A stretch of 50,243 bases of DNA from Balneolaceae bacterium (lineage in GTDB: Bacteria; Bacteroidota; Rhodothermia; Balneolales; Balneolaceae). The position numbers were made by a program, and so were the translations under genes. The DNA is taken from contig JAFGWN010000085.1 of the NCBI GenBank assembly GCA_016937115.1, positions 1 to 50,243 on the forward strand, read 5' to 3'. The notes under the pieces are model-generated. The model saw only the letters and a program-made list of their open reading frames with translations. It did not search any database and was not told the origin of the DNA. This document shows, piece after piece, positions 30,630-35,643 of this stretch (position 1 is the first letter of the stretch; every line of letters starts with the position of its first letter).

Positions 30630-31931
30630 TTACGTAAGCTCAAAGCGTTTAAGCTTATCCCTTAAGCGATCTAATCCCAAATTTCCGGTAGATCCCAAAT
30701 GCGTTTTACACTTGATGTTTTGAACCGGATCTATATTCTCCCGGCTCACTCCCTTTTTCACCTGATGATATGCATCCCGGAAAGGCACGCCCTGCTTTAC
30801 TAACTCATTCGCGCGATCAGCAGCGTATATCTCTGGCCCGCATGCTGCCATGAGCACTTCCCGATTGGGTTGCAAGTGATCGAGAAGAAGTCGGCTCATA
30901 TCAAACATGGCTTCGATCTCGTCCAGGCTCTGCATCACATGTTTTTTTATGGGTTGATAATCGCGATGGTAACCGGAAACCATTTTATGACCAATCATCG
31001 CAACCGACTGAACAGCGCCGCTGATGTTTGCACTGCGCGCACGAATCAACTCGGCCGGATCAAGATTTTTCTTTTGCGGCATGATGGATGAGCCGGTGTA
31101 AAGCCTATCATCAAAATGGAAGAAGTCAAACTCCCGCGACGTATACAGCACAAGATCATTCGCAAAATGTGCCTGTATTCCGGCTATAGTATCGAGCGCT
31201 CTAAGAAGCTGTAAGTCGATGCGACTGCGCGTGTTTTGGGCACACAATGACACCGTAATGGGGTCAGCAAAGCCCAGCGCATCCGATACTTCCTGCCGGG
31301 GCAGATCCAGGTTCACCCCAAATCCGGCGCCGGTACCCAACGGACACAAATTAACCTGCTTATATGCCGCCTTTAAAATTTCCAAATCCATCAGCAGCAT
31401 TTCGGCCATCGCCCCCAGCCACATTCCCACCGAGCTTGGCATTGCCTTTTGAGTGTGCGTATAGCCCGGCATCGGGATATCGGCAAAGATATCGGCTTTA
31501 GTGATAAACAGATCAATTAATCCTATAGTATGAGTTGAAATTTCCCGGAGCGCATCTTTTTCAAACAGGCGCATGGCAACAAGCACCTGATCGTTGCGCG
31601 AGCGCCCGGCGTGAATTTTTTTGCCGGTCTCCCCCAACTCATCTACCAGAAACTGCTCAATCGCTGTATGCCCGTCTTCCTGTTCCTGCTTAATGGTGAA
31701 ATCACCATTGTCCCACTTCGCCAGCAATTTATTTAACGCTTCATGCAGGTGGTTAGCCTCTTCCTCGTTTAGGATGCCCGCCGTCGCTAATCCCGAAGCG
31801 TGGGCTTTCGACGCCCGAATATCGTACGGCACCAACCGTTGGTCGAGGATATAATCATCCCCGACCGTAAATTGGTTCACCTTTTTTGAAAGTTCATTTG
31901 CACTATGCTCTTCCTGCCAGAGTTTAGACAT
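30630..31931 (-). CDS. argH: Argininosuccinate lyase
   Basis: A 433-residue member of the fumarase/aspartase superfamily that splits argininosuccinate into arginine and fumarate, the last step of arginine synthesis. Visible motifs: IHAGRSRNDQV (about 106-116), GYTHTQKAMP (156-165) with the proton-handling histidine, and the superfamily signature TGSSIMPQKKNLDPAE with the catalytic serine on the flexible loop (280-289). The start overlaps the argG stop by 8 bp, so it is made from the same mRNA as argG and argF. The C-terminus (GLDRLRDKLKRFELT) is slightly shorter than E. coli ArgH (457). Confidence 0.95.
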   Translation of the reverse strand: MSKLWQEEHSANELSKKVNQFTVGDDYILDQRLVPYDIRASKAHASGLATAGILNEEEANHLHEALNKLLAKWDNGDFTIKQEQEDGHTAIEQFLVDELGETGKKIHAGRSRNDQVLVAMRLFEKDALREISTHTIGLIDLFITKADIFADIPMPGYTHTQKAMPSSVGMWLGAMAEMLLMDLEILKAAYKQVNLCPLGTGAGFGVNLDLPRQEVSDALGFADPITVSLCAQNTRSRIDLQLLRALDTIAGIQAHFANDLVLYTSREFDFFHFDDRLYTGSSIMPQKKNLDPAELIRARSANISGAVQSVAMIGHKMVSGYHRDYQPIKKHVMQSLDEIEAMFDMSRLLLDHLQPNREVLMAACGPEIYAADRANELVKQGVPFRDAYHQVKKGVSRENIDPVQNIKCKTHLGSTGNLGLDRLRDKLKRFELT

Positions 31932-33189
31932 ATTTTTTTACTCCTTTCTTTAATTGATGTGCGGTTTTCTGCGGCAAATTCCAGAGTTCAATAAAACCGG
32001 CCGAAGCATTCTGGTTAAAATCTGCCGATTTGTTAAACGTAGCGAGGTTCTCATCAAAAAGCGAATAGGGTGATTCTAAAGCAACAACCTCACAATTTCC
32101 CTTGTAGAGCCGCACCTTCACGGTACCGCTCACTTTTTTGTTCTGCTTGTTGATGTAGGCCCGAATATTATCCATCACCGGCTCGTAGTACTTTGCACCA
32201 TAACACAGATACGCCCATTTGGAATCCATGAACTGTTTAAGTTCATTCTCTTCCCGCGTTGATACAAGCTGTTCCAGATTTTTATGCGCAGAGATAAGAA
32301 TATGTGCCGCAGGATTTTCGTAAACTCCCCGGACCTTCAGCCCTACCACCCGGTCTTCAATCAGGTGGAAATACCCTACGCCGTGCTTCGCTCCTGTTTT
32401 ATTCACTGCCTGGATTAGATTAGTTGCCGGTAACGACACGCCATCCAACGCTGCAGGTACCCCCTCTTCAAAGGTAATACTGATGACCTCCGCTTCGTCC
32501 GGAGCTTGCCGGGGTGTATTGCACCACTTAAGGATGTTTTCCAGTGGCGGAATCAGTTTTGGATCTTCAATTTCGCCGCCTTCCCCTGTGTTGGCCCACA
32601 TGTTCTCGTCATACGAATAGGGCGATTCTTTGGTCTGTTCTACAGGGATCTTATGCTTCTTTGCATACGCCAGCTCCTCATCACGTCCCATCGACCATTC
32701 CCGTACCGGCGCGATGATTTTTAAATCGGGATTGAGTGTTGTGATATAACTTTCAAACCGGACCTGATCATTCCCTTTGCCCGTGCAGCCGTGGGCAATC
32801 ACTTTGCAGCCAAATTCATCGGCTACCTTTGCGGCAATCTCAGAAATCATTACCCGACCCAACGGACATCCCAATGCATATCCTCCCTGGTAGTCGGCAT
32901 TGGCTTTCACTGCTTCCCAGCAAAGCTCGGCAAATTCTTCCCGTGCATCGTAAGTAACGGCATCTTTGGCTCCCAATGTCAATGCCTTTTCTCTGATCCA
33001 TTCCAGATCATCGGCACGCTGACCCAGGTTGATCGATAGTGCAATCACATCACATTCGTAATGTTCCTGTATCCATGTAAGCATAACGCTGGTATCAAGT
33101 CCGCCGGAGTACAGTAGCAGACAGGTATCAAACGTTCCTTTTTCGGCTTCATGAGATGCTGTTTTGTGGTACGTGTTCAGTTGTTCCAT
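31924..33189 (-). CDS. argG: Argininosuccinate synthase
   Basis: A 421-residue ATP-dependent ligase joining citrulline and aspartate. The PP-loop is LLLYSGGLDTSVML (residues 24-37). HGCTGKGNDQVRFE is the citrulline/ATP site, and the later blocks include EKGTFD and SPYSYDENMWANTGEGGEIE. The start was set at the ATG at 33189. A longer reading from 33294 would add 35 residues that overlap argF and have no family counterpart. argF ends 31 bp upstream and argH overlaps by 8 bp, so it is the middle gene of argF-argG-argH, expected to be controlled by the leader at 34204-34331. Confidence 0.95.
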   Translation of the reverse strand: MEQLNTYHKTASHEAEKGTFDTCLLLYSGGLDTSVMLTWIQEHYECDVIALSINLGQRADDLEWIREKALTLGAKDAVTYDAREEFAELCWEAVKANADYQGGYALGCPLGRVMISEIAAKVADEFGCKVIAHGCTGKGNDQVRFESYITTLNPDLKIIAPVREWSMGRDEELAYAKKHKIPVEQTKESPYSYDENMWANTGEGGEIEDPKLIPPLENILKWCNTPRQAPDEAEVISITFEEGVPAALDGVSLPATNLIQAVNKTGAKHGVGYFHLIEDRVVGLKVRGVYENPAAHILISAHKNLEQLVSTREENELKQFMDSKWAYLCYGAKYYEPVMDNIRAYINKQNKKVSGTVKVRLYKGNCEVVALESPYSLFDENLATFNKSADFNQNASAGFIELWNLPQKTAHQLKKGVKKYV

Positions 33190-33220
33190 AAGAGTGTTAT
33201 TTAAAATTGTGGTATAGGAT

Positions 33221-34180
33221 TTAAGAATAATTTTCGGTAAGCAGTGTGGTGAATATGCCGAGTGCCGTAACCATGCGATTACGGGCCTGATCATATACCC
33301 AGGAGTTCGGGTGATCTATCACTTCATCCGTTACTTCCACTCCGCGGTGGGCTGGCAGGCAATGCATGAACCCCGCATGAGGCGCTGCTTTGGATAGAAG
33401 CTCTTTATTTACCTGGTACGCTTTAAAGCGGTTCATTTTCTCCTGGTACACATGCTCTTCACCCATAGAAACAAAAGCATCGGTGTACACGGCATCGGCG
33501 CCGCTGGCAGCAACCACGGGATCGGTGGTATGAATAAAATCTCCACTGTACTGTTGGGCTATTTCAATGAAGTGAGAAAGTGTACCATCCGCCCAGTGGT
33601 AATCAGCCGGACCGGCAAACTGTACCGTATGGCCAAATATCAGGCAAATTTCGATCAGTGAAAATGAGACGTTATTGGAATCGCCCAGGAAAGCGATTTT
33701 TAACTCTTGGTCGGTCCCAAACTTTTCCTGCAGCGTGTACATATCGGCTACGGCCTGCATGGGATGGTGAATCTCGCTCAATCCATTTACCACGGGAATG
33801 CCCGAGTATGAGGCGAGTGTCGTTAACGTCTGATGCTGATAAACCCGCGCAAAAATGGCATCACACCACTGCGATACATTTTTTACGGTGTCTTTAAGGG
33901 ATTCCCGCTCATCGGGGACCTCAAATTCGAGGTCAGCAGGATGCATCACTTTGCCACCGAGGAAAGCTTCGGGTGAGATATGAATAACGTTACCTCCCAG
34001 CTTATTAATTGCCACCTCGCTGGCCACAAGTGTGCGCAGCGAGGGTTTTTCGAAACTGAAGAGAATATTTTTTCCCTGCAGGGTTTGAATGGAAGGGTTG
34101 CTGTGCAGATACTTACTCTGCGTTAAGATGTGTTGAAGAAATGATTTGTTGTGTTCGCCAATAGATAAAAAATGGTTCAT
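33221..34180 (-). CDS. argF: Ornithine carbamoyltransferase (ATCase/OTCase family)
   Basis: A 319-residue transcarbamylase that makes citrulline from ornithine and carbamoyl phosphate. Family blocks are VVNGLSEIHHPMQAVADMYTLQEKFG, IAFLGDSNNVSFSL, AVYTDAFVSMGEE and HCLPAHRGVEVTDEVID (H273 onward), all in the ornithine form. The carbamoyl-phosphate loop, usually FEKxSTRTR, reads FEKPSLRTL (43-51): the first serine, arginine and threonine stay, but T is L and the last arginine is L. SLRT also occurs in the N-succinyl- and N-acetyl-ornithine enzymes of Bacteroidota relatives, so substrate is not fully settled. It is the first gene of the arg operon, 24 bp after an attenuator-like terminator. Confidence 0.85.
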   Translation of the reverse strand: MNHFLSIGEHNKSFLQHILTQSKYLHSNPSIQTLQGKNILFSFEKPSLRTLVASEVAINKLGGNVIHISPEAFLGGKVMHPADLEFEVPDERESLKDTVKNVSQWCDAIFARVYQHQTLTTLASYSGIPVVNGLSEIHHPMQAVADMYTLQEKFGTDQELKIAFLGDSNNVSFSLIEICLIFGHTVQFAGPADYHWADGTLSHFIEIAQQYSGDFIHTTDPVVAASGADAVYTDAFVSMGEEHVYQEKMNRFKAYQVNKELLSKAAPHAGFMHCLPAHRGVEVTDEVIDHPNSWVYDQARNRMVTALGIFTTLLTENYS

Positions 34181-34203: not shown

Positions 34204-34237
34204 AAAAAAGCCCGCTCAGTGTTTAGTTGAGCGGGCT
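34204..34237 (-). terminator. Leader terminator of the arg operon (attenuator)
   Basis: Perfect 10-bp stem AGCCCGCTCA (34237-34228) and TGAGCGGGCT (34218-34209) with a 9-nt loop, followed by TTTTTT then ATT. It is on the same strand as argF and ends 24 bp before the argF start, so it lies inside the leader. It could also stop read-through from the M16 peptidase gene. With the upstream arginine-codon ORF and competing pairing segments it makes a transcription-attenuation unit. Confidence 0.9.
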
Positions 34238-34290
34238 GAATACATTGATTTGGATGAGGTAGAGATCAAGTATTTCGCCCATACGGGCGA
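34233..34290 (-). promoter_or_regulatory. Alternative protector / antiterminator pairings in the arg leader
   Basis: Protector: TCGCCC (34290-34285) pairs with GGGCGA (34280-34275) across a GTAT loop, 6 bp. Antiterminator: GGGCGAAATAC (34280-34270) pairs with GTATTCAGCCC (34243-34233) as GGGC/GCCC and AATAC/GTATT with a 2x2 internal mismatch. The antiterminator takes AGCCC, the start of the terminator's 5' arm, so the two are exclusive. A ribosome stalled on arginine codons 12-15 disrupts the protector and frees the segment for the antiterminator; one reaching the stop at 34268 covers it, and the terminator forms. Confidence 0.7.
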
Positions 34291-34331
34291 CGGCGGCGTT
34301 CGTTTTTGGCTATGATTACTTGATTACTCAT
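34266..34331 (-). CDS. Arginine-codon-rich leader peptide of the arg operon
   Basis: A 21-codon ORF starting at an ATG immediately preceded by an in-frame TGA. It ends NERRRRPYGRNT. Codons 12-15 are CGC CGC CGT CGC and codon 19 is CGA, giving five arginines in 21 residues, four of them consecutive. No Shine-Dalgarno is seen, in line with most genes here. The ORF sits 85 bp upstream of argF and its stop lies 28 nt before the leader terminator's stem. Ribosome stalling at the arginine run would place the ribosome just short of the segment that can act as antiterminator. The match to classical leader peptides (hisL, leuL style) is strong, though the peptide itself is unproven. Confidence 0.85.
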   Translation of the reverse strand: MSNQVIIAKNERRRRPYGRNT

Positions 34332-34363
34332 TCAAAATGTGTACTAAGAAAATTTATTTCATC

Positions 34364-34370
34364 CAAACTA
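34364..34370 (-). promoter_or_regulatory. Tentative -7 element of the arg operon promoter
   Basis: On the minus strand TAGTTTG at 34370-34364 is one base shorter than the Bacteroidota-type TAnnTTTG. It would place a transcription start about 25 nt before the leader ORF. Evidence is weak; listed only because the 64 bp between the M16 stop and the leader ORF must hold the promoter. Confidence 0.25.
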
Positions 34371-34395: not shown

Positions 34396-35643
34396 CTATT
34401 TTTCGGGTAGTAATATCGCCTTCGAAAATTTTGAATCCTCAAAGAAATCGGTAGAAAATTGACGAATGTCATCAACCTGTACCCCATCGATATTAGATAT
34501 CAACTCATCAAGAGTGACAAAACGATCAAAGTAGATTTCACTCTTGGCCAGGCGGCGCATACGGTTGCTCATACTTTCGAGCGATAACAGCAGTTTGCCT
34601 TTTAGCTGGGCCTTGGCTTCATCAAGCTCTTTTTCCGGAACCGGTTCGTGCTCTAACTTGTGCAATTCCTTGAGGATCAGCTCTTCAACGTGATCAACAT
34701 AATCTTCATCTGTTCCCACGTAAACCCCATATAGTCCCGTATCTCTATACGATTGGTTAAACGAGCTGATGGTATAGCAATAGCCGTATTGCTCGCGTAC
34801 ATTTTGATGCAGCCTTGAACTCATCCCTCCGCCAAGAATGGCATTGGTAAGCAACAGCTTGTATTTATCGGGATGATCGTAATGGAGTCCCCTTCGGCCC
34901 AGAATAAGGTGGGTCTGTTCAATCGTTTTGTGGAGTTTTTGCCCACCCGGCTCGTACGAAGTGAGTGCCGGATCGTGATCAGCACCATTTTTTAATTCTA
35001 CATTTGCGAAATATCCACGAACCAGTTCCACAACTTCATCATGTTCCATGTTGCCGGCTACCGAAACCAGCAGGTTATCGGGTTGATAGCGATCCGCCAT
35101 ATAATCATATAGATCCTGCCGCTCAAATGAAGCAACGGTTTCTTCGAAACCAATTACCGGGCGACCCAGCGGGTGGCCTTCGAAAACGTGGCTGCTGAAA
35201 TTCTCAAAAAGATAGTCGCTTGGGCTGTCACGATACATCTTCATCTCTTCAATCACTACATTCTTCTCTTTCTCAATCTCGTTTTCGGGGAATGATGGAT
35301 GCAGCACCATATCCGACAGTACATCCAGTGCCTTCTCCAACTGGGTATTGAGACACCGTGAATAGTAACAGGTATACTCCGAAGAAGTAAATGCATTAAG
35401 ATACCCACCGACCGACTCCATACTGAGGGCGATATCGTACGATGAACGACTTTCTGTTCCCTTAAATAACATATGTTCCAGGAAATGTGTTATCCCCGCC
35501 TGCGCATCGGTTTCATTACGGCTTCCGGTCTTAGCCCAAATACCGACCGACACACTCTTAACGCTTTCTACCCGTTCGGTGACGATCGTCAACCCATTGG
35601 AAAGTCTTGTTTTCTCTATAAAATCAGTTTCAGTATGTACCAT
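34396..35643 (-). CDS. M16-family zinc metallopeptidase (pitrilysin/processing-peptidase type)
   Basis: A 415-residue single-unit M16B protein, like the PqqL/MPP-beta-type bacterial peptidases. The inverted zinc motif HFLEHMLFKGT (HxxEH, residues about 48-58) and the third ligand E in ENEIEKEKNVVIEEMKMYRD are intact, so catalysis is expected. The middle shows HPLGRPVIGFEETVASF and the C-terminal half has the GGGMSSRLHQNVREQYGYCYTISSF block (R/Y that shape the substrate pocket). No signal peptide is seen. It follows pnp after 223 bp with a terminator between, so it is probably transcribed on its own. Its stop is 64 bp before the arg leader ORF. Confidence 0.9.
   Translation of the reverse strand: MVHTETDFIEKTRLSNGLTIVTERVESVKSVSVGIWAKTGSRNETDAQAGITHFLEHMLFKGTESRSSYDIALSMESVGGYLNAFTSSEYTCYYSRCLNTQLEKALDVLSDMVLHPSFPENEIEKEKNVVIEEMKMYRDSPSDYLFENFSSHVFEGHPLGRPVIGFEETVASFERQDLYDYMADRYQPDNLLVSVAGNMEHDEVVELVRGYFANVELKNGADHDPALTSYEPGGQKLHKTIEQTHLILGRRGLHYDHPDKYKLLLTNAILGGGMSSRLHQNVREQYGYCYTISSFNQSYRDTGLYGVYVGTDEDYVDHVEELILKELHKLEHEPVPEKELDEAKAQLKGKLLLSLESMSNRMRRLAKSEIYFDRFVTLDELISNIDGVQVDDIRQFSTDFFEDSKFSKAILLPEK

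Follow-up and report, generated by a model that had tools for sequence, protein, structure and literature searches.

The argFGH operon of a Balneolaceae bacterium is preceded by a short leader that, judged from its sequence and from its relatives, is very probably a classical ribosome-mediated transcription attenuator sensing charged tRNA-Arg. The leader lies in a stretch of 50,243 nucleotides (contig JAFGWN010000085.1), here called the window, and is read on the minus strand, as are the other features of the window described below. Amino-acid attenuation is textbook knowledge for trp, his, leu, ilv, thr and phe, and arginine biosynthesis is textbook knowledge for repressor control, arginine operons elsewhere being normally under ArgR. 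The mechanism is already known; its apparent novelty is that it would sense arginine on behalf of an arginine biosynthesis operon. A literature search of partial coverage found no report of an Arg-codon leader attenuator for such an operon, which agrees with the original prediction that this kind of attenuation is rarely if ever described, and to our knowledge the earlier comparative attenuator surveys list other amino acids, not arginine. If the reading is true, codon-reading attenuation would extend to a six-codon amino acid and could replace a missing repressor.

The leader ORF upstream of argFGH

The operon consists of argF (ornithine carbamoyltransferase family, 33221..34180; NCBIfam TIGR00658 above cut-off, with OTCases as best PDB relatives), argG (argininosuccinate synthase, NCBIfam; 31924..33294 for the ORF as listed, the true start being probably downstream of the argF stop) and argH (argininosuccinate lyase, NCBIfam; 30630..31931). 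Upstream of argF, an ORF of 21 codons (34266..34331) runs from an ATG at 34331 to a TGA ending at 34266 and encodes the peptide MSNQVIIAKNERRRRPYGRNT*. Minus-strand reading bore out the four consecutive Arg codons predicted in this ORF (CGC CGC CGT CGC, 34287..34298), which comparison with relatives also marks as the putative sensing run, together with the fifth Arg codon nearby (CGA, 34277-34275) and the stop codon directly before the ATG (an in-frame TGA immediately 5' of 34331); the coordinates first given were correct to within a base.

RRRR did not occur in the 13,410 aa of window proteins, and when the intergenic region was simulated with a Markov-1 model, a short ORF with RRRR arose by chance in 0.085% of cases. 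As CGC, CGG and CGT are common Arg codons in the window (counts of 168, 161 and 140 respectively), the run is made of common, not rare, codons, and an explanation of the run by a rare-codon effect was rejected.

Alternative folds of the leader RNA

The leader folds more stably than dinucleotide shuffles of itself (z = -5.6; 0/200 shuffles were equally stable). The predicted terminator was confirmed as an intrinsic terminator (34204..34237) with a 10-bp stem AGCCCGCTCA/TGAGCGGGCT (arms 34237-34228 and 34218-34209) and a U6 tail (34209-34204), starting 28 nt after the leader stop. It does precede argF as proposed, but the end of the U tail is 23 nt, not 24 nt, from the argF ATG (34180). Segment 2 (GGGCGAAATAC, 34270..34280) can pair either with segment 1 as a protector or with segment 3 (GTATTCAGCCC, 34233..34243) as an antiterminator.

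The 6-bp protector hairpin that had been placed just after the Arg run was found as TCGCCC/GGGCGA (34290-34285/34280-34275), its 5' arm (34285..34290) overlapping the last Arg codons; the pairing with segment 2 involves no more of the Arg run than its last 5-9 nt. The folds also revealed a lower stem of this 1:2 hairpin (34324-34317/34272-34265) that was absent from the original prediction, formed by ATCAAGTA (34317..34324) inside the leader ORF and TACTTGAT (34265..34272), which includes the leader stop codon. A 1:2 anti-antiterminator with its 5' side within the leader ORF is therefore present in the folds (arm-swap z -4.4, see below). The alternative pairing expected to take the first half of the terminator proved to be GGGCGAAATAC/GTATTCAGCCC (34280-34270/34243-34233): segment 3 overlaps the 5' arm of the terminator at 34237-34233, so that by coordinates and folds antiterminator and terminator are mutually exclusive, and 2:3 pairing takes away the 5' half of the terminator.

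The elements thus stand in the trp/his layout, as anticipated from the his, leu and trp operons. Like the trp, his, leu, ilv, thr and phe attenuators, the leader has an ORF with a run of the product's codons, a 1:2 anti-antiterminator, a 2:3 antiterminator, a 3:4 intrinsic terminator and a stop codon at segment 2; it differs from them in its lineage (Balneolales) and in the sensed amino acid, predicted to be arginine.

In the proposed mechanism, translation of the 21-codon peptide by a ribosome would accompany transcription of the leader by RNA polymerase. Ample Arg-tRNA would let this ribosome go on to the UGA at segment 2's end, mask the segment and leave segment 3 to pair with segment 4, so that transcription would stop at 34204. 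If the leader were not translated, the 1:2 hairpin (lower and upper stem) would hold segment 2 and transcription would likewise stop. When Arg-tRNA is short, the ribosome would stall on the Arg run, open the 1:2 hairpin and free segment 2, which would pair with segment 3 as antiterminator and let the polymerase enter argFGH. We infer that the leader is translated, that transcription and translation are coupled in this lineage, as the model requires, that charged tRNA rather than free arginine is sensed, and that starvation leads to readthrough.

Conservation in Balneolales relatives

Relatives of argF with approximately 50% identity or more were found across Balneolales genomes (Balneolaceae, Balneolales MAGs and Rhodohalobacter sulfatireducens, L078) by searching genome contigs with an alignment query; a single-protein query gave none. 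The comparison took in all 30 non-redundant Balneolales loci that share the window's argF type and have a long enough upstream region. In 30/30 loci a short ORF contained 3-5 CGN codons in a row, and a terminator came 41-64 nt after it. An Arg run or stems unconserved in close relatives had been named as evidence that would count against the original prediction; the Arg run, 1:2 hairpin, antiterminator and terminator were kept, with covariation, in all 30. Three loci (L004-L006) had the run RRRCR, not RRRR, and in these the antiterminator gained little over shuffled sequence (z -0.6 to -1.2).

Among other argF types (L017-L030 and L036-L052), 1/31 had a short RRR ORF directly upstream, without a terminator, and an Arg-run leader with terminator was found directly upstream of none of the 17 phylum loci with an approximately 40%-identical argF (L036-L052). 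The class-1 leader, as we call the argFGH type, was not found at the non-Balneolales argF of 50-56% identity (L069, L070, L075, L076, L081 and L083), and a covariance model search of the window's own genome gave no second class-1 element besides the argFGH copy. No convincing Arg leaders were found before argC-argJ and carA in genomes of the argFGH type. Searches gave no full argC for the window's genome (G000, incomplete) or for that of the nearest argF relative (G013, 97% complete); ornithine or citrulline may be the only starting points of arginine synthesis in these two bacteria.

The leader peptides of the relatives were widely divergent outside the Arg run (MSNQVIIAKNERRRRPYGRNT in the window; MKFNSQIILSNLRRRRPLGV, MNFERHSTLILSLRRRRRSGV, MYMTFTNLHITSTLVLRRRRP and MQTYFSPVQITPSASPLAIVAASVVLRRRCRTGRSM elsewhere). 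The third positions of the Arg codons varied (CGC/CGT/CGA/CGG, with CGG x4 in L014/L016), and the distance from the Arg run to the stop ranged from 1 to about 6 codons (RRRRP* in L003, RRRRPYGRNT* in L001). These features bear on an arrest-peptide switch of the kind seen in TnaC/SpeFL or the fungal arginine attenuator peptide: free arginine (or its absence) would act on the nascent RRRR inside the ribosome tunnel, and stalling of the ribosome would determine how the RNA folds. Arrest peptides usually depend on a defined sequence whose spacing to the stall site is constant. The conserved polybasic run, often followed by P-x-G, and the existence of fungal arginine-responsive uORFs speak for such a switch, as do the Arg codons of speF orf34, which sense arginine (PMC6386406). 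However, no conserved peptide with such a constant spacing was found among the relatives, and the codons of P-x-G coincide with the hairpin sequence GCCC..GGGC and are explained by RNA pairing. Because only the Arg run is conserved, the N-termini being widely different, and the distance to the stop varies, we regard an arrest peptide as unlikely, and charged tRNA-Arg as the probable signal.

Covariation of the helices

Arm-swap tests and anchored counts were used in place of column counts because MAFFT alignments misregister the terminator arms. In the arm-swap test, the pairing energy of each leader's own arms was compared with that of arms exchanged among the 30 leaders. Own arms paired better than swapped arms in the terminator (-19.0 vs. 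-12.3 kcal/mol, z -9.1), the antiterminator (-20.3 vs. -15.8 kcal/mol, z -8.1) and the lower region of the 1:2 hairpin (-16.8 vs. -14.7 kcal/mol, z -4.4), each with 0/20,000 permutations as good; the permutations do not fully correct for relatedness, although arms exchanged between close relatives still match and so reduce the contrast measured. Two control segments without expected pairing gave a z of -1.3.

Anchored counts showed terminator pairs 1-6 paired in 30/30 leaders, with G-C/C-G/A-T/T-A exchanges; positions 5 and 6 occurred as G-C, C-G and A-T or T-A. The antiterminators folded once the right arm of the terminator was omitted. Their constant part was GGGC:GCCC or, by a double change, AGGC:GCCT, and their interior was variable (GTGTGATA:TATCAC, GAAATAC:GTATTTC, GTGTGAAA:TTTCAC). 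Matched changes were also present in the lower stem of the 1:2 hairpin: CACAGAG:CTCTGTG (L067), CACACA:TGTGTG (L063), AACTACAC:GTGTAGTT (L010) and GCATACC:GGTATGC (L014).

Pairing of the last Arg codons in the upper stem would also fit attenuation without arginine sensing, the leader reporting general translation status and the Arg run being kept for its pairing. This is very unlikely: the unpaired part of the run stays CGN with varying third bases, and the leaders of sister operons (see below) keep their Arg-richness, not their sequence. That the terminator merely ends the transcript of an upstream M16-peptidase gene (34396-35643), with the Arg ORF a coincidence, is hardly credible: this gene has the same direction as the leader and ends approximately 65 nt before it, but it lies upstream only in the window, and across 30 loci the ORF, the run and the stems vary together, with a chance of RRRR of about 0.00085. 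The upstream neighbour is divergent in most relatives, and therefore the leader must be served by a promoter of its own and the terminator cannot serve a gene further upstream. We infer a candidate promoter element at TAGTTTG (34364..34370); in 21/30 relatives a TTG, compatible with a promoter element, stands 35-36 nt ahead of the leader's start codon.

ArgR and other arginine-responsive systems

ArgR/AhrC would give the same outcome, arginine feedback on arg genes, but by a protein-DNA mechanism. Searches found ArgR (PF01316) neither in the window's own genome (86.6% complete) nor elsewhere in the order, where they covered 59 genomes, 46 with a completeness of 90% or more. In the phylum it was present in 93/248 genomes, in several cases adjoining argF. 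From these distributions, Arg-codon attenuation apparently takes the place of ArgR throughout an order.

The fungal arginine attenuator peptide (arg-2/CPA1 uORF) likewise exerts arginine control through an upstream peptide; it acts by eukaryotic translation arrest, with a specific peptide and free arginine. In Salmonella, consecutive Arg codons of speF orf34, whether rare or frequent, sense arginine by ribosome pausing, and Lys substitutions abolish the response (PMC6386406). The argFGH leader shares with orf34 consecutive Arg codons in a leader ORF. The target of orf34 is, however, ornithine decarboxylase and polyamine synthesis, and it acts via Rho, RNase G and sequestration of a ribosome-binding site, without an antiterminator or intrinsic terminator (PMC6386406). 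The leader does not belong to the speF/ORF34 family, defined by the DUF2618 core HIRRT..HIMM before ornithine decarboxylase, as both its peptide and its downstream gene differ.

Arginine T-boxes have been mentioned (PMC1262725). T-boxes of this kind (RF00230) resemble the leader as tRNA-Arg-responsive transcription attenuators of arg genes, but a T-box binds the tRNA directly, without a leader peptide. Rfam at the gathering threshold gave no match in the window, to a T-box or otherwise, and none in eight odd loci. Leader-peptide attenuation of amino acid operons has also been suggested in Flavobacterium psychrophilum (PMC9723704).

Other Arg-rich leaders

Nine genomes from other families of the order (L161-L165, L168, L169, L180 and L191) had an argG-led arg operon behind a different Arg-rich leader and a terminator. 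The leaders of these operons (MKLNMTYNLCNDSRRRRFRRRLERDLCKDCV, MINQTTNIFRIENRRRRIRRRLPVGICEDCV, MKNNTLIAGSVLVRRRRWATALEESCR and others) often contained RRRxRRR, with an antiterminator such as TGTGAAGATTGTGTCTG with AAGGCAGAATCTTCGC. Own arms again paired better than swapped arms (n = 9; antiterminator z -3.7, terminator z -3.5).

A third leader type (MQKSLAHRIDRRSVRRIPRRR, MQNTLAHRIDFIPVRPIPRRR, MLISEVYRPISIPVNPVRPIYRRRR) lay before an acetyltransferase-argG operon in approximately 18 genomes of the same family as the window (L166, L170-L177, L181-L185 and L187-L190). These leaders mostly ended in PRRR-stop (CCGCGGCGGCGGTAA), and several had a long-range complement (AGAATTGA/TCAATTCT). A clear intrinsic terminator was not found in them, and they could represent a separate, peptide-dependent or translational mechanism.

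Arg leaders and T-boxes were also found upstream of argF in Patescibacteria. A Candidatus Peribacteria argF (L097:1256-1380) had the Arg leader MNTQISQIIVNRRRSTDTSRKLR and a GC-rich terminator upstream, with CGGAAGCT:AGCTTCCG as a possible antiterminator. Upstream of another Patescibacteria argF (L107:764-1340) we found a T-box (E 1.7e-18, below the Rfam gathering score) and then, in tandem, an RRRR leader ORF with a second terminator of its own. A T-box-like leader (E 3e-9) preceded an Uhrbacteria argF approximately 52% identical to that of the window (L076:1115-1434). In L107 and L076 the T-box specifier, the triplet after a conserved GAA, is apparently CGC, an Arg codon. ArgR was not found in the genomes of the L097, L107 and L076 loci.

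The three architectures of the order are RRRR before argFGH, RRRxRRR before argG-led operons and RIPRRR-stop before acetyltransferase-argG operons. We consider it reasonably likely that Balneolales Arg-codon leaders replace ArgR in at least three unrelated architectures and that Patescibacteria use the same solution, once in tandem with a T-box. This order-wide pattern is more interesting than the single locus, and Arg-codon leaders were seemingly invented more than once. Through them, tRNA-Arg charging and the coupling of transcription to translation would become accessible in a Bacteroidota lineage that has a member in culture (Rhodohalobacter sulfatireducens, L078); they might also be engineered into sensors of arginine limitation.

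Two further observations concern argF outside the Balneolales. Upstream of an ECT2AJA-110-C argF of 50% identity, MTNSYNNIVNIRRSYRRYRRS contains six Arg codons of different kinds, but no terminator is obvious there (L081:1269-1332). The argF of Gracilibacteria, Uhrbacteria and Peregrinibacteria (L069, L070, L075, L076 and L083) is 51-56% identical to that of Balneolales, most other Bacteroidota argF being only approximately 40% identical to it, below the values of the Patescibacteria; on these identities, the closeness of Patescibacteria and Balneolales argF suggests gene transfer.
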